Positions 33,073-59,158 of a DNA stretch of 64,000 nucleotides are shown here, one piece after another. The first letter of the stretch is position 1. Every line of letters begins with the position of its first letter. Under the pieces are notes generated by a model, which was given only the letters and a program-made list of their open reading frames with translations, did no database searches and was not told where the DNA came from. The translations under genes were made by a program, and so were the position numbers. The DNA comes from Flavipsychrobacter sp. (GTDB lineage Bacteria > Bacteroidota > Bacteroidia > Chitinophagales > Chitinophagaceae), in NCBI GenBank assembly GCA_016786615.1, contig JAEUVX010000004.1:248001-312000 (forward strand), in the 5' to 3' direction.

Positions 33073-33253
33073 AAGTGCTCCGCTCGTTTTATGTTAACAA
33101 ATATTTAATTATAGCTATAAATATAAAAACTATTAAGTGAATATTAAATACTTGTGACCCTTATTGATGAAAAATACCCTATATACGGTATATCATGCCT
33201 TTTAAAAGGCTATATAATGTTTATCTGATTGATTCATAGATGATTACCCAAAT

Positions 33254-33292
33254 GTTAACCGCTGGTTAACCGTTTGCAAATCAGTGGTTAAC
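33254..33292 (+). promoter_or_regulatory. Phased GTTAAC array upstream of small secreted protein 1
   Basis: GTTAAC at 33254, 33265 and 33287, with GCAAAT at the intermediate 33276 position and ATTACC at 33243: an exact 11-bp pitch. The 29-bp block from 33264 to 33292 (GGTTAAC, 3 nt, TTGCAAA, 5 nt, GGTTAAC) recurs upstream of the paralogue at 35639 at the same distance from its -7 box. Likely a regulator-binding array. Confidence 0.7.
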
Positions 33293-33401: not shown

Positions 33402-33947
33402 ATGAAAAAAATCATCGCAATCGCAGCTTTCTCAATCACAGCAGTCGCAGCTAAGGCTCAAAACGCTTCTTCTACGGCTCAGCAACAAGTAAATCTGAAC
33501 CTGAACAATGCTATCGAACTGACTTTTACCGGGTCTAACAGTGCTACAGGTGCAGCAGTTAACATCGCTTTCAACACAGTTAACGATTACGCAAACGGTG
33601 TTGCATCAAATGCACAGGAACTGAAAGTACGTTCTAACAAGAAATTTGATGTAACAGTTAAAGCAAACGCTGCTTCTTTCTCTTACACTGGTAGTACTAC
33701 TCCTGCTCCTGTAATGCCTGTACAAGGTGTTCTGGCACTGAAAGTAAGTGCAAACGGTACAGGTGGTACTATAGCAGGTGGTTTCAGCGGCTACACTAGC
33801 CTTACTTCTTCTGCTGCTAACCTGATAACAAATGGTAACAACGGTGGCAACCAGACATTCAGCGTTATGTACAATGCAACTCCGGGTTTTGCATACCCTG
33901 CAGGTACTTACACTGTAGATGTGGTATATACTGCTACTCAACAATAA
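33402..33947 (+). CDS. Small secreted beta-sandwich protein, paralogue 1
   Basis: 181 residues, signal peptide ending AKAQ. The mature part is Thr/Ser/Asn/Ala-rich, beta-strand-like, and without Cys. Landmarks shared with the two paralogues downstream are NLNLNNAIELTFTGSN, FNTVNDYANGV, LKVRSNKKFDVTVKA, FSYTGST, and the C-terminal strand YPAGTYTVDVVYTATQ. The closing GTYT-V-x-(Y/F)-T-x-T strand resembles WxL-domain and spore-coat-U/fimbrin-type beta sandwiches, but I cannot assign either family. No T9SS tail. Its promoter holds the GTTAAC array. Codon use is strongly biased to few codons, hinting at high expression. Confidence 0.75.
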   Translation: MKKIIAIAAFSITAVAAKAQNASSTAQQQVNLNLNNAIELTFTGSNSATGAAVNIAFNTVNDYANGVASNAQELKVRSNKKFDVTVKANAASFSYTGSTTPAPVMPVQGVLALKVSANGTGGTIAGGFSGYTSLTSSAANLITNGNNGGNQTFSVMYNATPGFAYPAGTYTVDVVYTATQQ

Positions 33948-48528: not shown

Positions 48529-49587
48529 ATGGCATCGAAAAAAATACAGGAACTGCTGGGCGATCAGGCAGGCTTTTATCTGGACCACACTTGCAAAACC
48601 ATCGACAAATCTGTACTGCACCTGCCTACAGGTAGCGTAGTAGATGACGTATGGCAAATGTCTAACCGCAACATCCAGACGCTGAAAAGCATTCAGGCAC
48701 TGATGGGCAATGGCCGTCTTGCAAACACAGGTTATGTATCTATCCTTCCTGTAGATCAGGGTATTGAGCATAGCGCCGGTGCGTCTTTCGCTCCGAACCC
48801 TATTTATTTCGATCCTGAAAATATTGTGAAGCTGGCTATGGAAGGTGGTTGCAACGCGGTTGCATCTACTTATGGCGTACTGGGTTCTGTTGCTCGCAAA
48901 TATGCTCACAAAATACCTTTCATTGTAAAAATCAACCACAACGAGTTCATCTCTTACCCTAACAAGTTCGATCAGATCATGTTCGGCACTATTAAAGATG
49001 CGTGGAACATGGGTGCAACAGCAGTAGGTGCTACTATCTATTTTGGTAGCGACGAAAGCGCTCGCCAGATTGTAGAAGTTGCTAAAGCATTTGAATATGC
49101 GCACGAACTGGGTATGGCTACTGTATTGTGGTGCTACCTGCGCAACAGCGGTTTCAAGAAAGATGGCGTTGACTACCATACTGCTGCCGACCTTACAGCA
49201 CAGGCAAACCACCTGGGCGTAACAATACAGGCAGATATCATTAAACAAAAATTACCTGCAGGCAATGGCGGTTACAACGCGCTGGCTTTCGGTAAAACAC
49301 ATAAGAAAGTTTACGAAAACCTGACTACAGACCATCCGATAGACCTGTGCCGTTATCAGGTAGCTAACTGCTACATGGGCCGTGCCGGTTTGATAAACTC
49401 TGGTGGTGAGTCTAAAGGTGCATCTGATATGGCAGAAGCTGTAATGACTGCCGTTGTTAACAAGCGTGCAGGTGGTATGGGCCTTATCAGTGGCCGTAAA
49501 GCATTCCAGAAACCAATGAACGAAGGTGTGGAATTGCTGAATACTATTCAGGATGTTTACCTGGATAAAGACATCACAATCGCATAG
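48529..49587 (+). CDS. fbaB: Fructose-bisphosphate aldolase, class I (FbaB/DhnA type)
   Basis: Cleaves fructose 1,6-bisphosphate in glycolysis or forms it in gluconeogenesis via a lysine Schiff base; 352 residues, cytoplasmic TIM barrel. [31 protein letters not shown] and [11 protein letters not shown] (candidate Schiff-base Lys239) mark the archaeal-type class I family rather than the zinc class II. Codon use is clean and biased, fitting high expression. Monocistronic, with a promoter and hairpin terminator. Confidence 0.95.
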
Positions 49588-49690: not shown

Positions 49691-49740
49691 TTTAATGTAT
49701 CTTTAAGGTGATTTTAACCTTATATTGAAGCATTTTTAAT
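49691..49740 (+). promoter_or_regulatory. 11-bp phased TTTAAn array upstream of FN3-like gene 1
   Basis: TTTAAT at 49691, TTTAAG at 49702, TTTAAC at 49713, a degenerate ATTGAA at 49724 and TTTAAT at 49735: an exact 11-bp pitch over five positions. The last copy ends only 12 bp before the ATG, so the array lies over the promoter and leader, unlike the other arrays. A TTTG (49681) and TATCTTTA (49699) may be the promoter inside it. Confidence 0.65.
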
Positions 49741-49752
49741 GTAGTCATAATT

Positions 49753-51540
49753 ATGAAACATCTCTACAAACTCAAATTTTTGTTGCCTGTACTGATGCTG
49801 TTTGCAATCAGTGCAAAAGCACAACTACCGGCGTGTTCTACATACGTATTCACGACGTCTAGTGAAACGTTTACATATTTATCAGGAGGTACTTCGGCAT
49901 CTAGTATACTTTGCGATGATTGTATTCAGACAAATATCCCAATGAACTTCACATTTCCGTTTTGTGGTAACAACTACAATACAATTAGCGTTGGTTCAAA
50001 CGGTTACATATCGTTGTCAAACAGTGCTAACGTATGGTTGGGAGTTTCTACATCAGCTATTACCAGTACACAACCTGTGCTTTTCGGTATGTGGGGCGAT
50101 GAGTGGGGAAGTGCTGGTGCTGCATCATATTTGACAACGGGTAGCGCCCCTAACCGTGTATTTACTTTCGAATGGCGTAACTGGCGCCCATACGCAAATA
50201 CAGCAAATCCTGAATATTCTATGCAAATGAGGTTATATGAAACTTCTGGCAGGATACAATTCTTATATAAAAGGGAAGGTACTACTACCCGCACATCTAC
50301 TTATGGCATTGGTATTGCATGGTCTGCTGCGGACTACCAGTCTCTGCAAACAAATACTGCTACACCTGCTATATCAAACACATCGTTATTTACTTATTCC
50401 GGGTATCCACCTAACAATCAGGTATATCAATGGGATCCGCCAACACCATGTACCAAGGCAAGTGCGTTAACAATGGGTAATTACAACTCACAAGCAGCAT
50501 CATTCAGTTGGACAGGCGTTCCCGGTTCGTTAGATTATCAATATGCCGTAGATACGAGGGCAGATTTGAGCCCTAATCTTACTACGACAATTACTAATAC
50601 TACAGTGACAAGTGGCACTGCAATAGGTCTGACACCCAATACAAGGTATTATATTCACGTTCGTACACGTTGTTCACTCACGAGTATTTCACAGTGGGAC
50701 ACGCTATCTTTTGTAACGCTGCCTCAATGTTCTCGTCCTGATACGTTGATAGTAGGCTATGTAGATTCTAATAGTGTGAATTTCCAGTGGTCGCCTGTTA
50801 TCACTGCCTTGTCTTATGACTATATATTCAGCAGTACAAAGATAGTGCCTACAAAAGCAATGGCTACAAACATATCAAGCCCGGTAGTAGCAAAAGCAAG
50901 CCTTACAGAGGGTACATGGTATTATGTTTACTACAGGTCGTTGTGTACTAATGCAGATAGTTCAGGCTGGATGTTAGATTCTATCTATACACCGGTGCCA
51001 TGCCGTGCACCACAGCTTAGCATGAATATGCTTGTCAGTAACAATGCAATTGTTACATGGAGCCCTGTGAATACTGCATATCAATATGAATATTTTGTTG
51101 GCACATCAGCTACAGAACCTACATTAGGTACACCACATAAGTTCACAAGCCTGCAACTGCCATACCTTGTGCCAAAATCTACTTATGACCTGTTTGTAAG
51201 ATGTAATTGTAGTGATAATGGTATTAAAACAAATTCTAAGTGGGCATTGCTTGAGTTTGCAACACCTCCGCCAACAGCTATTAACAGTATATATATGAAT
51301 GCTGTAAATCTCAGCGTTTATCCTAATCCTGCACACGATGTGTTGTATATAGAGTTGAGTGGTAAATATTCTTCTAAAGCATCAATCTATATTACTGATG
51401 TTGCAGGAAGGGTGATACAGACAGTTGATGTTTCTGCTGACAAATTCTCTGTTGATGTGAGCCGTCTTGCAAAAGGTGTTTACTTCCTGAAGTTTATGGA
51501 TGGTGAGCATACAAAGACAACACGTTTTAATAAGCTCTAA
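49753..51540 (+). CDS. FN3-like T9SS-secreted protein 1
   Basis: 595 residues. Signal peptide ending AKAQ. The N-terminal domain (about 25-230) has FTFPFCGNNYNTISVGSNGYISLSN and FEWRNWRPYAN, which resembles nidogen-like or galactose-binding-like beta domains. Three fibronectin III-type modules follow (about 235-510), opening PCTKAS, CSRPDT and PCRAPQ; each begins with Cys. The type A sorting domain (VYPNPAHDVLYI to TTRFNKL) ends it. It is the first of five consecutive same-strand genes with related tails. Probably an adhesin or matrix protein (inference). Confidence 0.9.
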   Translation: MKHLYKLKFLLPVLMLFAISAKAQLPACSTYVFTTSSETFTYLSGGTSASSILCDDCIQTNIPMNFTFPFCGNNYNTISVGSNGYISLSNSANVWLGVSTSAITSTQPVLFGMWGDEWGSAGAASYLTTGSAPNRVFTFEWRNWRPYANTANPEYSMQMRLYETSGRIQFLYKREGTTTRTSTYGIGIAWSAADYQSLQTNTATPAISNTSLFTYSGYPPNNQVYQWDPPTPCTKASALTMGNYNSQAASFSWTGVPGSLDYQYAVDTRADLSPNLTTTITNTTVTSGTAIGLTPNTRYYIHVRTRCSLTSISQWDTLSFVTLPQCSRPDTLIVGYVDSNSVNFQWSPVITALSYDYIFSSTKIVPTKAMATNISSPVVAKASLTEGTWYYVYYRSLCTNADSSGWMLDSIYTPVPCRAPQLSMNMLVSNNAIVTWSPVNTAYQYEYFVGTSATEPTLGTPHKFTSLQLPYLVPKSTYDLFVRCNCSDNGIKTNSKWALLEFATPPPTAINSIYMNAVNLSVYPNPAHDVLYIELSGKYSSKASIYITDVAGRVIQTVDVSADKFSVDVSRLAKGVYFLKFMDGEHTKTTRFNKL

Positions 51541-51562
51541 TTAATAATTGATATTATAAGAC

Positions 51563-51588
51563 AAAGCCTGCAGATACCTGCAGGCTTT
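51563..51588 (+). terminator. Terminator after FN3-like gene 1
   Basis: Stem AAAGCCTGCAG / CTGCAGGCTTT with loop ATAC and a following T-tract. Confidence 0.85.
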
Positions 51589-51652
51589 TCTCATTTATAC
51601 ATAGTTTTTTTTAAAAAGTTTAATAATTCTGTTTGTCAGTGCATTATGTTTT

Positions 51653-51724
51653 TTTAATGTGTTTATAATTCCGCTTTAATCGTAGGTTAAGTGTATTTTA
51701 ACTACCACATAATTGCATTTTAAT
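51653..51724 (+). promoter_or_regulatory. 11-bp phased TTTAAn array upstream of FN3-like gene 2
   Basis: Seven positions at exactly 11-bp pitch: TTTAAT 51653, TATAAT 51664, TTTAAT 51675, GTTAAG 51686, TTTAAC 51697, CATAAT 51708, TTTAAT 51719. Five carry an intact TTAA core. A TAATTTTA (51757-51764) downstream could be the -7 box, 25 bp before the ATG at 51789. Confidence 0.7.
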
Positions 51725-51788
51725 TGACCTGAATAGTGCTTGGGGCAAGGCTTCCATAATTTTACAATTATAGATAACAGGTAAAATT

Positions 51789-53606
51789 ATGTTTATGAAG
51801 TATATATGTAATGCCATTAAATCCGCTTTACTTTTCATATTGTTGATGGGTATTGCTAATAATGTTCAGGCTCAGATACCGGCATGTTCTACCTATGTTT
51901 TTACAACATCCTCCGAGCCATTCACCTATCTTACCGGAGCCAGTTCAGCATCTACAATTCATTGCGATGACTGTACCATGCGGTTTATATCAGTTGGGTT
52001 TAGTTTCCCTTTTTGTGGTAATAATTACTCGTCAGTGAGTGCGTGTTCCAATGGGTTTTTATCACTTTCAAATTCATCCAGCGCATCGTTATCAAATTTA
52101 TTATCAGGTGTTAACAGTATAGCTCCTATTCTGCAGGTAATGTGGGATGATATGTATGGAGCGATTGGTTCAACAGCCAGTTATAAAACACAAGGCACAA
52201 GCCCAAACAGGGTGTTTATATTTGAATGGAAAAACTGGCGTACATATGCCAATCGTAATACCGGAGCAGCAATATCTATCCAGTTGAAGTTGTATGAAAC
52301 ATCGGGCAGAATTCAAATGCACTATAAAAGAGAAGCATCTGCATCATCATACAATCCCAGTAGTGCATCTATAGGTATTGCATACAGTAATGCCGATTAC
52401 CAATCATTACCTAATGCTGGTGTCAGCCCGGTTCCTTCTTCAACTACATTCACAACCGGCATCAACGCATGGCCTGCTACCAATCAGATTTATCAATGGG
52501 ATCCTCCAACGCCTTGTACCAAATCAAGTGCATTTACTATGGGCAATTACAACTCACAGGCTGCATCATTCAGTTGGACAGGTGTACCGGGGGCATTGGA
52601 TTATCAATATGCGGTAGATACAAGGGCCGACCTGAGTCCTAATCTTACAACACCCATTACAAATACAACAGTAACCAGCGGTAGCGTTACAGGCCTCACG
52701 CCTAATACACGGTATTATCTTCATGTGCGTACCCGTTGTTCTCTTACAAGCATTTCTCAATGGGATACGTTGTCTTTTATTACGCTACCCGCATGTTCAC
52801 GCCCGGATACTTTGATTGTCGGTTATATTGATTCAAATTCTGTAAGTTTTCAATGGACTCCTGTTACAACCGCATTGTCTTATGATTATATAGTTTCTCA
52901 AACGAAACTCACCCCGATTAAAGCGCTTGCAACTAATATTATCTCGCCGACAGTAGCACTTAATAATCTTACAGAAGGTACTGTATATTATGTTTATTAC
53001 CGCTCTTTATGTACAAATGCGGATAGTTCTGCATGGATGTTAGATTCTTTCCGTACTCCGGTGCCATGCCGTGCACCTGAGCTTTCATTGTCGATGCTCG
53101 CTAATAACAACGCTGTGGTATCCTGGAAATTAGTTAATACTGCATATCAATACGAGTATTATTTAGGTAAAGAACCCACACCACCAGCTCTCGGTACACC
53201 AATAAAAACAAATAGTGTGCAAACGCCTTATCTGGTACCCAGTACGATGTATGATTTGTTTGTGAGATGTAATTGCAATGACCACGGTATCCTTACTAAT
53301 TCCAAATGGTCGATGCTGGAGTTTGTAACATTGCCACCTACAAGTATTTCCGGTGTCAGTCTGAATACGGTATTTATAAGTGCATATCCCAACCCCGCTA
53401 CTGAAACTTTGAATATTGCCATATCCGGTCAGTATTCTTCAGATGCAATGTTATTCATTACAGATATTGCAGGTAAGCAATTGCAAGTCGTGAATGTGCT
53501 TTCGGGTAAAACATCAATAGACATCAGTAAGCTGACACCTGGTGTATATCTGTTGAAATATGCAGATGGTGCTAATTCAAAAGTATTGCGATTCAACAAG
53601 ATGTAA
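51789..53606 (+). CDS. FN3-like T9SS-secreted protein 2
   Basis: 605 residues; the next Met (MKYICNA) is an equally possible start. Paralogue of the previous gene with the same order: signal peptide (QAQ), N-terminal beta domain (FSFPFCGNNYSSVSACSNGFLSLSN), modules PCTKSS, CSRPDT and PCRAPE, and a type A tail (AYPNPATETLNI to LRFNKM). The first module is nearly identical to that of gene 1 (GNYNSQAASFSWTGVPG, RADLSPNLTT) while the N-terminal domain has diverged and gained about ten residues. This points to exchange or selection on the modules. Confidence 0.9.
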   Translation: MFMKYICNAIKSALLFILLMGIANNVQAQIPACSTYVFTTSSEPFTYLTGASSASTIHCDDCTMRFISVGFSFPFCGNNYSSVSACSNGFLSLSNSSSASLSNLLSGVNSIAPILQVMWDDMYGAIGSTASYKTQGTSPNRVFIFEWKNWRTYANRNTGAAISIQLKLYETSGRIQMHYKREASASSYNPSSASIGIAYSNADYQSLPNAGVSPVPSSTTFTTGINAWPATNQIYQWDPPTPCTKSSAFTMGNYNSQAASFSWTGVPGALDYQYAVDTRADLSPNLTTPITNTTVTSGSVTGLTPNTRYYLHVRTRCSLTSISQWDTLSFITLPACSRPDTLIVGYIDSNSVSFQWTPVTTALSYDYIVSQTKLTPIKALATNIISPTVALNNLTEGTVYYVYYRSLCTNADSSAWMLDSFRTPVPCRAPELSLSMLANNNAVVSWKLVNTAYQYEYYLGKEPTPPALGTPIKTNSVQTPYLVPSTMYDLFVRCNCNDHGILTNSKWSMLEFVTLPPTSISGVSLNTVFISAYPNPATETLNIAISGQYSSDAMLFITDIAGKQLQVVNVLSGKTSIDISKLTPGVYLLKYADGANSKVLRFNKM

Positions 53607-53626
53607 GTCTGACGTTTAATTCTGAA

Positions 53627-53661
53627 ATACACTATGCTACATCATGTGGCATAGTGTATTA
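53627..53661 (+). terminator. Terminator after FN3-like gene 2
   Basis: Arms AATACACTATGC / GCATAGTGTATT with an 11-nt loop; no strong T-run, so the efficiency is uncertain. Confidence 0.6.
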
Positions 53662-53773
53662 TATGTTACAAAAAACAAATCCAATTTATTGTTGTTATAA
53701 TGTTTTTTTGTTTTTCACAAATTACATTCATTTATCATCTCAACGCCGTATATATATGCGATTATTCCAGACA

Positions 53774-53834
53774 ATTAAAATCTAATTAAAGTGCGATTAA
53801 AGACTGATTAAACAGAGGTTAAACATTGATTAAA
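53774..53834 (+). promoter_or_regulatory. Six-copy 11-bp phased ATTAAA array upstream of FN3-like gene 3
   Basis: The clearest array: ATTAAA at 53774, 53785, 53796 and 53807, GTTAAA at 53818 and ATTAAA at 53829, all spaced exactly 11 bp with unrelated bases between. The motif is in the opposite orientation to that of genes 1, 2 and 4 (ATTAAA versus TTTAAT), although the TTAA core is palindromic. The array ends 110 bp before the ATG, as does the array of small secreted protein 1. Confidence 0.8.
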
Positions 53835-53943
53835 ATTGACTCTTGGAGAATTTAATGACGTTGTGTTCTCATAATAGTGTTTAAATTGATATTGATTGTA
53901 TTACCTATTGTTTTTGGTATAAACAAAATAACAACTTATAGCA

Positions 53944-55605
53944 ATGAAGAGAAATTTACTATTATTCTTGTTTTTATGTTTTAACTGTGTTACTGCATTT
54001 GCGCAGCCTCAACATGTTAGATCGGCAACCAGTGCAAACAACTCATTCCCATTTAATACTACCAGTAGTAACAGGGTTCAGAATCTCTTTATGGCATCTG
54101 ACTTTTCACCAGCGTTGCCAATGGGTACAATCACTAAAATATATTATAAAAGTGCAACAAGTACAACCAGTACGTTTTCAAACGTTACGATAAGCATCGG
54201 CACTACTACATTAACGGCATTTGCAACAGGCCCATGGAATACAGGCCTTACTACTGTTTTCGGACCTGCTACTTACGCCAATACATTTGTTAGTGGCCAG
54301 TGGTTTGAGTTCACTTTAAGCTCTCCTTTCTTTTATGATGGCACTTCAAACTTTATTGTTGAGGCATCTCAGACAGGTTATACAAGTGGTGTTATCATTC
54401 AGCAAGGAAGTGTAGGTGGGAACAGGCGTATGTGGGGTAATGTAACAGCTACAACAGCTTCTGCCGGTACAGGTAGTCCTGAGTTTGGTATAGATATTAT
54501 TCCGGGGTCTCCATGCACAAAAGCAATTTCATTACCTACAACAAATATTGCATCCACATCTGCACAGGTAAACTGGAATGCTGTTCCGGGTTCATTTAAA
54601 TATGAATACATCATTGATACCACAGCACCTGGAAAGGCATATACAAGTATCGTGTCAACAACTAACACGAATGCATTTGTAACGGGTTTGATACCGGGTA
54701 AAACACATTACTTACGTGTTAGGAATTACTGTAGTGCTATCAGCTACTCTATGTGGGATACTATGCAGTTTGTTACATTGCCTCCGTGCAGCAAGCCAGC
54801 AGGTTTTACTGTCAGCAATGTAGATTCCAACTCTGCGAATATCCAGTGGGATACTGCAAATAACGTAATATCATGGCAGTGGCTGGTAGATACCAATAGA
54901 GCCAATCCATTGTTAAGCAACCCGAATATTCAGAATACGACGATACGATTCAAAGCTTTAACAGGCCTTGCTGAAGGAAAATGGAACTATGTGCATATAC
55001 GTGCAAAATGTGTTGCCAATGATAGTTCAAGTTGGTCGTTAGACTCATTCTATACACCAACTCCATGTCGTAAACCCGCATTGTCACTTTCATTCCTCAA
55101 TCCATTTACAGCATCTATATCATGGCCTGCAGTTAAGACAGCCGTTAACTATGAATACTTTATGGGCCCTGTATCGGCCATACCTGCAAATGGTACGCCA
55201 TTAATCAATCCGTTTATCCTGACACCATATCTGGTTCCAAGCACCAACTATACAATGAGTGTACGTTGTAATTGTATAGACAATGGAGTTAAACAAACAT
55301 CGGGCTGGGCATCGTTAGATTTCACATCGGCACCACCATTAAGTGTTAGCAATGTATCAGAAACACCATTCAGTATTGCGACATACCCCAATCCTGTAAA
55401 AGACAACCTGGTAATCAAGGCTACTGGCAAACGCAATGGTGCAGCTACCATTACTATTATGGATGTAAAAGGTAAAGTGATCGAAAAGCTTACGATGGAA
55501 ACAGACGACCTGACAATTAAAACAAATCATTATGCTGCAGGCATCTACATACTGCAGTATGCAGATAATGCTACAAGCAGGGTAACTAAGTTTACCAAGC
55601 AGTAG
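53944..55605 (+). CDS. FN3-like T9SS-secreted protein 3
   Basis: 553 residues. Signal peptide ending AFAQ. N-terminal beta domain (about 22-190) with VRSATSANNSFPFNTTS, MGTITKIYYKSA and WFEFTLSSPFFYDGTSN, GGNRRMWG, a fold common to secreted Bacteroidota proteins. Three FN3-like modules (about 195-465) open PCTKAI, CSKPAG and PCRKPA. Type A tail (TYPNPVKDNLVI to RVTKFTKQ). Its modules are almost identical in DNA to those of gene 4, including a stretch of about 95 identical bases from 55132, while N-terminal domain and tail end differ. Confidence 0.9.
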   Translation: MKRNLLLFLFLCFNCVTAFAQPQHVRSATSANNSFPFNTTSSNRVQNLFMASDFSPALPMGTITKIYYKSATSTTSTFSNVTISIGTTTLTAFATGPWNTGLTTVFGPATYANTFVSGQWFEFTLSSPFFYDGTSNFIVEASQTGYTSGVIIQQGSVGGNRRMWGNVTATTASAGTGSPEFGIDIIPGSPCTKAISLPTTNIASTSAQVNWNAVPGSFKYEYIIDTTAPGKAYTSIVSTTNTNAFVTGLIPGKTHYLRVRNYCSAISYSMWDTMQFVTLPPCSKPAGFTVSNVDSNSANIQWDTANNVISWQWLVDTNRANPLLSNPNIQNTTIRFKALTGLAEGKWNYVHIRAKCVANDSSSWSLDSFYTPTPCRKPALSLSFLNPFTASISWPAVKTAVNYEYFMGPVSAIPANGTPLINPFILTPYLVPSTNYTMSVRCNCIDNGVKQTSGWASLDFTSAPPLSVSNVSETPFSIATYPNPVKDNLVIKATGKRNGAATITIMDVKGKVIEKLTMETDDLTIKTNHYAAGIYILQYADNATSRVTKFTKQ

Positions 55606-55632
55606 CAGAGCAGAGATGTCATAATTTTTCAA

Positions 55633-55656
55633 AAAGCCACTTTTTTAAGTGGCTTT
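55633..55656 (+). terminator. Terminator after FN3-like gene 3
   Basis: Stem AAAGCCACTT / AAGTGGCTTT with loop TTTT. The phased TTTAAT array begins 15 bp later. Confidence 0.75.
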
Positions 55657-55671
55657 AAGTGTTTATATAAT

Positions 55672-55721
55672 TTTAATCTGTTTTTAATCTTAACATTAAT
55701 AGGTTTTAATCCAATTTTAAG
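55672..55721 (+). promoter_or_regulatory. 11-bp phased TTTAAT array upstream of FN3-like gene 4
   Basis: TTTAAT at 55672, 55683 and 55705, TTTAAG at 55716, and between them ATTAAT at 55695, shifted by one base. A degenerate TTTCAT lies at the next 11-bp position (55727). Four of five intact cores are in perfect phase. The ATG of gene 4 is 73 bp after 55721. Confidence 0.7.
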
Positions 55722-55794: not shown

Positions 55795-57462
55795 ATGAGT
55801 AAAAAATTACTATTGTTGATGTTGCTTATTGTATCGGTTAATCTGGTACAGGCACAGACTTACATACGCACAGCTACCGGAGCGACAAACGTTTTCCCTT
55901 TTGGTAGTTCTACCAATAGGGTACAGTATTTATACGAGGCTGCTGACTTTTCGCCGGCAGTGCCAATGGGTACAATTACTAAAGTATATTTTAAAGCGCA
56001 GTCAACGTCAACCTCTACTTACTCCAATATGACGTTGTTGATAGGTACTACTGCATTGACACCTACTACATGGCCTACGGGGGCAGTGCCTTGGATTACC
56101 GGACTTAACTCAGCATTTTTTGCTTCATCCTACACTATTCCTGCGGTTACAGGCCAATGGTTTTCATTTACATTAACAACTCCATTCTTTTGGGACGGTA
56201 CATCAAATATTATTATAGATGTGTACTCAAATAGCGCGGGGGGTATATATCTCGATCAAGGTAGTGTTGGTGGCAACAGGCGTTTATGGGGTGTTTCTAC
56301 CAACACCAATGCTAATGCCGGCGGTACAGGTAGTGCTGCTCTTGGTTTAGATATCATTCCCGGTTCTCCGTGTACCAAAACATTGGCATTGCCTACAACA
56401 AATATTGCATCTACATCTGCGCAGGTAAACTGGAATGCTGTTCCGGGTTCATTTAAGTATGAATACATCATTGATACTACAGCACCGGGCCAGGCATTTA
56501 AACCTATTGTATCTACAACCAATACGAATGCATTTGTAACGGGTTTGATACCGGGTAAAACACATTACCTGCGCGTAAGGAATTATTGCAGTGCTATCAG
56601 CTATTCTCTGTGGGATACAATGCAGTTTGTTACGCTGCCTCCATGCAGCAAACCATCAGGTTTTACTGCAAGCAATATAGACTCCAACTCTGCGAATATT
56701 CAGTGGGATACTGCTAATAACGTTATATCATGGCAATGGCTGGTAGATACCAATAGAGCCAATCCATTATTAAGCAACCCGAATATTCAGACTACTACTA
56801 TACGATTCAAAGCTTTAACAGGCCTTTCGGAAGGGAAATGGAACTATGTGCATATACGTGCAAAATGTGTTGCCAATGATAGTTCAAGCTGGTCGTTAGA
56901 CTCATTCTATACACCAACTCCATGCCGCAAACCGGTATTGTCGCTTTCATTCCTCAATCCATTTACGGCATCTATATCATGGCCTGCGGTTAAGACAGCC
57001 GTTAACTATGAATACTTTATGGGCCCTGTATCGGCCATACCTGCAAATGGTACGCCATTAATCAATCCGTTTATCCTGACACCATATTTAGTTCCAAGCA
57101 CCAACTATACAATGAGTGTGCGTTGTAATTGTGTTGACAATGGAGTTAAACAAACATCGGGCTGGGCATCGTTAGATTTCACATCGGCACCACCATTAAG
57201 TGTTGGCAATGTATCAGAAACACCATTCAGTATTGCGACGTACCCCAATCCTGTAAAAGACAACCTGATAATCAAGGCTACTGGCAAACGCAGTGGGGTA
57301 GCTACTATTACCATTATGGATGTGAAAGGCCAGGTAGTTAAGCAACTGAAAATGGATACGGAGCAGGCAGATATTGATGTAGCATCATTAGCATCAGGTA
57401 TATATCTGCTGCAATACGTTGATGCAAATACCAATACAAATACAAAATTCACTAAGCAATAA
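55795..57462 (+). CDS. FN3-like T9SS-secreted protein 4
   Basis: 555 residues, paralogue of gene 3. Signal peptide ending AQAQ, N-terminal beta domain (RTATGATNVFPFGSSTNRV, MGTITKVYFKAQ, WFSFTLTTPFFWDGTSN, GGNRRLWG), three modules opening PCTKTL, CSKPSG and PCRKPV, and a type A tail (TYPNPVKDNLII to NTKFTKQ). The second half of the tail (QVVKQLKMDTEQADIDVASL) is unlike gene 3 and closer to other tails here, suggesting mosaic exchange. Own array promoter and terminator. Confidence 0.9.
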   Translation: MSKKLLLLMLLIVSVNLVQAQTYIRTATGATNVFPFGSSTNRVQYLYEAADFSPAVPMGTITKVYFKAQSTSTSTYSNMTLLIGTTALTPTTWPTGAVPWITGLNSAFFASSYTIPAVTGQWFSFTLTTPFFWDGTSNIIIDVYSNSAGGIYLDQGSVGGNRRLWGVSTNTNANAGGTGSAALGLDIIPGSPCTKTLALPTTNIASTSAQVNWNAVPGSFKYEYIIDTTAPGQAFKPIVSTTNTNAFVTGLIPGKTHYLRVRNYCSAISYSLWDTMQFVTLPPCSKPSGFTASNIDSNSANIQWDTANNVISWQWLVDTNRANPLLSNPNIQTTTIRFKALTGLSEGKWNYVHIRAKCVANDSSSWSLDSFYTPTPCRKPVLSLSFLNPFTASISWPAVKTAVNYEYFMGPVSAIPANGTPLINPFILTPYLVPSTNYTMSVRCNCVDNGVKQTSGWASLDFTSAPPLSVGNVSETPFSIATYPNPVKDNLIIKATGKRSGVATITIMDVKGQVVKQLKMDTEQADIDVASLASGIYLLQYVDANTNTNTKFTKQ

Positions 57463-57670: not shown

Positions 57671-59158
57671 ATGCTAATAAAACTTTACCCAAACCGTATT
57701 AAGACCGCTATTGCAATTGCAGGTTTAATACTGACAGCAGGCACTGCTGATGCTCAGGTATATTGTACACCGCAAGCAGCAGTTTCCGGTGCCAATTGTG
57801 GCCAGGGGTCTCCGAGCGCAATTCGTATCAATAGTGTTACCACTACAGGTGCTGTTACAAACATTGCAAACGCAAACAATACCTGTAATACAGCTACAGG
57901 GTACGAAATATACAGTGGCCCGGGCAAAGAGCTGACGGTTAACGCAGGTACAAGTTTTGGCTATACTATACAGTTGGCAAGTACAGGTACTGCATTCCCT
58001 TATAAAGTAGCAATATGGGTTGACTGGAACAGAGATAGCGTATTTAATACACTGGCTTATCCCGCCAATGCCAATGGTGAGTTTATGGTAGTATCTCCGG
58101 GGGCATTTACTTGTTGTACAGTACCATCGGGTACTATGGGTACAACAATACCTGTGCCACCTACTGCAAAAAATGGCCGTACGCGTATGCGTATCCGCGT
58201 GGGTACAAGGAATGGTGTTAACCCGCCATACGCACCACCAGTAGGTGAAGACCCTTGTTTCCTGGGTGGTTTCTATTACGGAGAAGTTGAAGATTATTAT
58301 GTAAACGTAATCAATCCGTGCTCTCCGCCACCACAAATCACATATTCAAACCTCACATACAATTCTGCGAACATTAAGTGGAAAAAATGGCCAACTGCTC
58401 TGATGTATGAGTATGTAATTACAACTACACCGGGAACACCTGGTAATGGTAATAATCTTACAAAAGATACATCGTTGAGTTTGCCTGATAGCAACTTCCC
58501 GATAGTATGTAATACAAAATACTACTTCTACATACGCAGCATTTGTGATACAGCAGGCCTTAATCAACAAAACTGGGTTGTATCTCCATGGAAGCTGGAC
58601 TCGTTTGTAGTGCCGCCATGCTGCTATACACCACAGATAACAATTGCAAATATTTCGAGTACAACTGCCATTGCAAGCTGGACGCCGGTACCAAGTGTGC
58701 AGCGTTATGAGTATGCCGTGCGTATAGATACACAAATACCACAGAGCGGCAATATCACAACACAAACAAGTGTAGTGTTGCAAGGTTTGGCACCGGGTAA
58801 AGAATGGTATTTCTTCCTGCGTGCGCATTGTACACCAACACCGTTATCTCCTTGGGGGCTCGACTCGTTCCTGACACAACCGGGTACAGGCATCGTAGCT
58901 ACAGGTAATGTTAAGAACTTTGAAATACAGGCATTCCCTAACCCGATGAAGGATAAATTTAACCTCCGCGTAGTTGGCGGCATGAAGTCAGGAATAGGTA
59001 ATATTATCGTTACGGATATTACTGGTAAAGTAATATCTCAACTGAAAATGGAAAATGACATGATGGATGTTAACCTTGAAGGCAAACCGGCTGGTATGTA
59101 TTTGCTCAAATACACCGATGATGCCAATAGTACCATCATTAAGGTCACGAAAGAATAG
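57671..59158 (+). CDS. GEVED / FN3-like T9SS-secreted protein 5
   Basis: 495 residues. Signal peptide (to about 29, ADAQ). A GEVED-type domain (about 60-215) shows VAIWVDWNRDSVFNT, RMRIRVGTRNG and the name-giving GEVEDYYVNV. Two FN3-like modules follow (about 217-412), opening PCSPPPQ and PCCYTPQ, then a type A tail (AFPNPMKDKFNL to IIKVTKE). GEVED domains are common in secreted adhesins and enzymes of the phylum. Unlike the four genes before it, no 11-bp array of TTAA hexamers is visible upstream, so it may be regulated separately. Confidence 0.9.
   Translation: MLIKLYPNRIKTAIAIAGLILTAGTADAQVYCTPQAAVSGANCGQGSPSAIRINSVTTTGAVTNIANANNTCNTATGYEIYSGPGKELTVNAGTSFGYTIQLASTGTAFPYKVAIWVDWNRDSVFNTLAYPANANGEFMVVSPGAFTCCTVPSGTMGTTIPVPPTAKNGRTRMRIRVGTRNGVNPPYAPPVGEDPCFLGGFYYGEVEDYYVNVINPCSPPPQITYSNLTYNSANIKWKKWPTALMYEYVITTTPGTPGNGNNLTKDTSLSLPDSNFPIVCNTKYYFYIRSICDTAGLNQQNWVVSPWKLDSFVVPPCCYTPQITIANISSTTAIASWTPVPSVQRYEYAVRIDTQIPQSGNITTQTSVVLQGLAPGKEWYFFLRAHCTPTPLSPWGLDSFLTQPGTGIVATGNVKNFEIQAFPNPMKDKFNLRVVGGMKSGIGNIIVTDITGKVISQLKMENDMMDVNLEGKPAGMYLLKYTDDANSTIIKVTKE

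Follow-up and report, generated by a model that had tools for sequence, protein, structure and literature searches.

TTTTAAT direct repeats at an 11-bp pitch upstream of type IX secretion cargo genes in Flavipsychrobacter: putative operators of an OmpR/PhoB-family response regulator

What recognizes a short AT-rich sequence that returns once every 11 bp upstream of each of four consecutive genes? The question is raised by a 64-kb stretch of a Flavipsychrobacter sp. genome (contig JAEUVX010000004.1, positions 248,001 to 312,000; hereafter the window, its genome being G000), where four tandem genes for cargo proteins of type IX secretion (T9SS) are each preceded by an array of TTAA-centered units. 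As far as sequence comparison can tell, the arrays are very probably operators of a response regulator of the OmpR/PhoB family, while the individual regulator that is predicted to bind them, the partner of a histidine kinase, can be named with good but lesser confidence.

All four genes lie on the forward strand and encode proteins composed of fn3 and Por_Secre_tail (PF18962) domains, of 595 aa (49753..51540), 605 aa (51789..53606), 553 aa (53944..55605) and 555 aa (55795..57462). Array 1 (49691..49740, forward) is built of TTTAA(T/G/C) units at 49691, 49702, 49713 and 49735 with a degenerate unit at 49724, and only 12 bp separate its end from the start codon at 49753. Array 2 (51653..51724, forward) has seven slots, five of them with exact TTAA, and array 4 (55672..55721, forward) has four exact TTAA and one out-of-register slot. 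Array 3 (53774..53834) lies on the reverse strand, so that the plus strand reads ATTAAA and its six consecutive exact TTAA units run backward with respect to the gene. At pitch 11, TTAA begins at 49692/703/714/736, 51654/676/687/698/720, 53775/786/797/808/819/830 (with a further one at 53852) and 55673/684/706/717; every site reported in the initial annotation, in which hexamers starting one base earlier were listed, is present. The unit can be written as a TTTTAAT core followed by four free bases (TTTTAAT-N4), and the spacers differ from unit to unit, which agrees with the initial remark that the bases between sites are unrelated and did not arise by simple-sequence expansion. The secretion tail occurs in all four products. 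Two points are to be corrected in the initial annotation: array 3 is reversed, and arrays are found elsewhere in the window as well (five pairs in 25 other stretches, including the array at 33244-33291 ahead of an unrelated gene for a secreted protein).

The periodicity was compared with several controls. Over the whole window there are 18 TTAA pairs at 11 bp, 14 at 22, 11 at 33 and 9 at 44, with five or fewer at all remaining spacings between 4 and 43 and only the background level at 10, 21 and 32 bp; chains of at least three TTAA, one gap being allowed, appear at pitch 11 only, among pitches 8-15 tested. When each of the four upstream regions was shuffled 2000 times with dinucleotide composition preserved, a control already proposed with the first description of the arrays, the observed in-frame TTAA count in five slots was never matched, and the plain count of 11-bp pairs was equalled in 0, 12, 0 and 9 shuffles, respectively. 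The other intergenic stretches of the window (n = 25) together contain five TTAA pairs at 11 bp. A periodicity of the same strength in intergenic DNA unrelated to these genes, which had been named as the observation that would undo the arrays, was not encountered, though other genes do have arrays.

The same arrangement recurs well outside the window. In the window genome three TTAA at pitch 11 gave 18 forward matches vs. one with the pattern reversed, and a search for five units that allowed 3 mismatches gave 38 vs. 4 control matches. The search of relatives for the motif at fixed spacing, suggested earlier as a check, also succeeded: four exact units are present in 20 of 59 related genomes, with 57 forward matches vs. 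4 in the control, nine of the 57 being true 11-bp tandem repeats in one genome, G020. Such repeats (G020:C22:290601-290681 and G020:C3:94889-94936; TTAAACATGCT, TTAAGACATGC) mimic the array pattern and are thus a source of false positives. Within the genus (15 genomes), three TTTAAT units with at most one mismatch were matched 68 times, vs. five times backwards, and these matches group into 45 sites, none of which was called within an open reading frame (ORF). Units of one array mostly point the same way: in 34 arrays chosen by TTAA alone 68 neighboring pairs have the same direction and 10 a different one.

Direct repeats spaced by about one helical turn (10-11 bp), with units arranged head-to-tail, are the form of a tandem operator of the OmpR/PhoB family, and the initial suggestion of a protein making repeated contacts along one face of the helix is the best-supported reading. 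PHO boxes, to which PhoB/PhoP binds, are likewise composed of 11-nt direct-repeat units occupied tandemly head-to-tail, in simple or complex operators of varying unit number (PMC4415409); here, unlike in PHO boxes, the core is different and the genes behind it are T9SS cargo and stress genes instead of phosphate genes. Still closer in its letters is the box of CtrA, an OmpR-family response regulator of Alphaproteobacteria, whose consensus TTAA-N7-TTAA is identical to a pair of our units in letters and pitch, and which activates or represses depending on position (PMC11264516). CtrA boxes are, however, mostly a single pair, whereas four to seven units with a TTTTAAT core are found here. Many OmpR-family members bind direct repeats, and the metal-sensing member AgrR binds the inverted repeat ATKACANNNNTGTMAT (PMC7380067), from which the present arrays differ as direct repeats. 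For Bacteroides fragilis, PhoB was reported to bind the pstC promoter, no consensus being given in the available part and the words "consensus" and "direct repeat" being absent from the main text (PMC3547664). TAACTGA heptamers, known from Beggiatoaceae, some Cyanobacteria and Bacteroidetes, resemble the arrays in being short direct repeats that lie between genes, ahead of start codons; their sets are split by other 7-mers, they were proposed to act on RNA and, in the accessible text, no regulator was linked to them (PMC4679880), and they lack the 11-bp pitch, the variable spacers and the TTTTAAT core. It had been stated at first that no element of such form was described in the phylum. This stands only in a narrow sense, for Bacteroidota, where neither such an operator nor a DNA motif controlling T9SS cargo was recognized among the open-licence papers listed, but not for the form as such, since both the 11-nt direct repeats of the OmpR/PhoB family and the CtrA box were known. 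What is new is the unit, its link to a regulator, the promoter register and the T9SS targets.

Which regulator would be involved? The most likely one is predicted to be the protein encoded at G000:C1:38571-39263, which combines a PF00072 receiver with PF00486 (Trans_reg_C), the domain composition of the OmpR/PhoB family, and adjoins a histidine kinase with HAMP, HisKA and HATPase domains. Its closest NCBIfam family is that of the CusR/CopR metal regulators (TIGR01387; 246.1 bits, below the 279.2 cut-off), and that of the kinase is TIGR01386. It is not a CtrA orthologue, scoring 165 bits vs. the 350-bit CtrA cut-off, which none of five other OmpR-family regulators of the genome that were scanned reached among the 25 families listed. 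The link to the arrays comes from relatives. In two other genera (L076, L103) an array directly follows a response-regulator/kinase pair, and a family search with the candidate protein found matches at E <= 1e-60 in 73 of 117 genomes. When four units were required no farther than 1.5 kb from the locus, and no more than 2 of 16 bases were allowed to mismatch, arrays were found at 13/30 loci of the closest relatives, 4/16 of intermediate and 1/24 of distant ones, and at 0/30 PhoB-like loci, that is at 17/46 vs. 1/54 (Fisher p 3e-6); the 30 closest loci gave none at pitches 8-10 and 12-14 and one at pitch 15. A second, separate genome search, in which arrays within 3 kb were counted at the best 80 loci of 572 relatives, yielded pitch-11 arrays at 44/80 loci vs. 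1-5/80 at pitches 8-10 and 12-15. When no more than a single mismatch was allowed, the counts were 32/80 vs. 0-1; TATA and ATAT cores gave no arrays in these 80 loci. The two genome sets overlap and contain related genomes, hence their counts are not independent. Of the 63 regulator-locus arrays, 20 lie within 330 bp before the regulator gene and 31 just after the kinase gene, intervals that make up about 14% of the sequence. The loci of the second search include Niastella (Chitinophagales) and Larkinella (Cytophagales), and TTTTAAT is the core common to regulator-side and T9SS-side units. Two contigs titled Azovibrio restrictus and Candidatus Saccharibacteria (L273, L300) bear Chitinophagaceae-like regulator loci; these assemblies are probably mislabelled or mixed.

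Many regulator-side arrays of other genera are also placed precisely with respect to promoters. Arrays outside ORFs and facing a gene within 300 bp were aligned on their last exact TTAA, and a TAnnTTTG-like sequence agreeing in 5 of 6 bases, which we take to be the Bacteroides -7 box, was sought. Among 54 forward array-gene pairs it starts exactly 11 bp past the last TTAA in 21 and 22 bp past it in eight further pairs, i.e., in 29/54 with no overlap (26/47 in the second-search loci alone, six loci of the full set having been chosen for their arrays); other offsets occur at most twice each, and none of 500 shuffles reached 21. A scan with the -33/-7 consensus revealed few clean promoters, and the signal became clear only by alignment on the last TTAA and only at regulator-side arrays. 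In E. coli the pho box takes the place of the -35 box. The 11/22-bp register puts the last units at the position of the -33 box, and so the bound protein would be an activator that stands in for this box.

Among the genes that face arrays within the genus T9SS cargo is strongly over-represented: within 600 bp, 56 genes face 44 of the 45 sites, and 23 of them encode a PF18962 tail, vs. an estimated 5% of genes of the window genome (142 PF18962 matches). This tail count was reached although eight of the 56 are cut short before the C-terminus. Among the rest are seven arylsulfotransferases and four glycine-cleavage H proteins, the latter sharing divergent regions with T9SS genes. Across seven species of the genus the array upstream of the arylsulfotransferase gene is conserved, 18 consecutive bases (TTTTAATTACTCCTTAAT) being invariant, and TTTG-N18-TAnnTTTA is found just upstream of the array in 5/7 orthologues, which would fit repression there. 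A pairing of the arylsulfotransferase leader with the start of the coding sequence, seen by eye, was rejected, as two of the seven orthologues are different on the coding side. The candidate regulator itself has an orthologue in 14 of the 15 genomes with at least 76% identity. In the window genome PF18962 genes lie on both sides of its locus and two units are kept upstream of its gene, and the clusters of G001 and G013 contain, about 4 kb from the regulator, an array accompanied by a gene for a secreted, cargo-like protein.

Taken together, the candidate regulator would bind the window arrays cooperatively and in its phosphorylated form. It would activate transcription where an array replaces the -33 box and may repress it where an array overlaps the promoter or follows it, which seems to be the case for the arylsulfotransferase gene. 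The putative operator now stands upstream of some of the T9SS cargo genes in the window's genus. A broader proposal is offered tentatively, with its odds below even: a two-component system of Chitinophagales and Cytophagales might own a four- to seven-unit TTTTAAT-N4 operator on which the phosphorylated regulator forms a graded cooperative row, and in the window's lineage this operator might have left the regulator locus and come to stand, time after time, in front of T9SS cargo genes that had newly arrived; a single kinase signal would then decide which cargo the secretion system displays.

Several observations weigh against this assignment. A full array within 1.5 kb was found at 0/14 regulator loci of the genus with up to 2 mismatches and at 2/14 with up to 3; the regulon would have been relocated or rewired, leaving these loci poor in arrays. 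Arrays occur in G003, whose relative of the regulator is only a 51% one, G010-G012 have the regulator without an exact four-unit TTAA array, and eight other OmpR-family regulators are encoded in the window genome. Presence and absence within the genus fails as a test of the link between regulator and arrays (orthologue in 14/15, exact four-unit arrays in 12/15, arrays in G003 despite only the 51% relative). All but a few of the 142 T9SS-tail genes lack an array; with divergent arrays counted for both genes, 34 of 119 array-gene pairs point away from the gene, as does array 3; and the T9SS arrays of the genus show no significant -7 register (best offset 4/31, reached in 28/500 shuffles).

Would another protein fit better? 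Nine Trans_reg_C proteins are encoded in the window genome, and the arrays could be bound by a different OmpR/PhoB-family member among them, e.g., the paralogue L109 (G000:C6:658766) or a PhoB-like protein. The lack of adjoining full arrays at the candidate locus in the genus would be explained in this way, and TTAA arrays are also present in the vicinity of PhoB-like regulators in two genomes (L075, L106) that belong to other families, as well as upstream of PhoU_div genes (L043, L044, L084). This substitution nevertheless seems unlikely: PhoB-like loci with arrays, absent among 30 at the stricter threshold, rise to 7/30 with up to 3 mismatches vs. 0-3 at other pitches, loci of L109-like paralogues in the genus gave 0/12 when 2 mismatches were tolerated at pitch 11, and the window unit agrees with that of the arrays beside regulators of the candidate clade.

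The remaining alternatives dispense with an OmpR/PhoB-family protein altogether. A built-in bend, also proposed in the initial annotation, would have helix-phased AT-rich steps curve the promoter without any dedicated protein, and AT-rich steps at about one helical turn in AT-rich intergenic DNA are indeed what is seen; bending, however, needs only an average near 10.5, while the spacing is strictly 11, the flanking bases and the direction are conserved, the -7 box of other genera stands in exact register, and TATA and ATAT cores form no arrays in the 80 loci of the second search, all of which makes the bend very improbable. No greater chance is given to an RNA element, in which UUUAAU repeats of a 5' leader would bind a translational regulator as was proposed for the TAACTGA repeats. 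Array 1 and the seven arylsulfotransferase arrays end 6-30 bp before the start codon and, where the promoter lies just upstream, the array may be transcribed; yet some arrays, array 3 among them, run opposite to the gene, arrays of other genera lie upstream of the -7 box, and 11 bp is the helical repeat of DNA. Chance or the expansion of a simple repeat in AT-rich DNA, for which the tandem copies of G020 are a real precedent, is hardly credible: the shuffle and pitch controls refute it for arrays as a class, spacers differ between units, and the arylsulfotransferase array is conserved in seven species.

Putative binding by the candidate response regulator offers a concrete lead on the possible control of some secreted proteins, of a kind numerous in these bacteria, as the tail matches of the window genome indicate. 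Regulator, unit consensus, promoter register and target list are all testable in culturable, non-pathogenic relatives, and the motif could be used to predict which genes an unstudied two-component system controls, a system present in two or more orders of Bacteroidota, among them those of Niastella and Larkinella.

A few minor observations concern neighboring genes and related arrays. A fifth adjoining T9SS cargo gene (GEVED, fn3 and tail; window 57671-59158) is without such an array upstream. In G010 and G014 (L242, L249) an array is also found between the aldolase gene (window 48529-49587) and a T9SS cargo gene, which is different from that of the window and much longer. TTAAG-flavored arrays lie upstream of PhoU_div (DUF47) genes at L043:3380-3427, L044:917-942 and L084:2989-3025, and a TACATTTG box follows some 40 bp further downstream. 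The reading of the arrays in general as Pho boxes, suggested by PhoU_div and PhoB-like neighbors, was rejected on the 0/30 PhoB-like loci with up to 2 mismatches and is kept only as a possible separate class; the TTAAG-flavored arrays are possibly the Pho boxes of this group. A GTTAAC/TGTAAA flavor, with G before the core and the same pitch, precedes genes of a short secreted-protein family (about 180 aa, NASSTATQT-like) in L031, L033, L034, L039, L080, L101 and in the window, where the array at 33244..33291 (no strand assigned) stands before the gene at 33402-33947 and possibly belongs to the same or a sister regulator. Five of these proteins (window:33402, L034, L039 twice, L117) were scanned and matched no Pfam family. 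In G070 (L117) two short secreted-protein genes adjoin the candidate regulator together with TTTAAT-type arrays, and because of this arrangement both array flavors may belong to one regulator.

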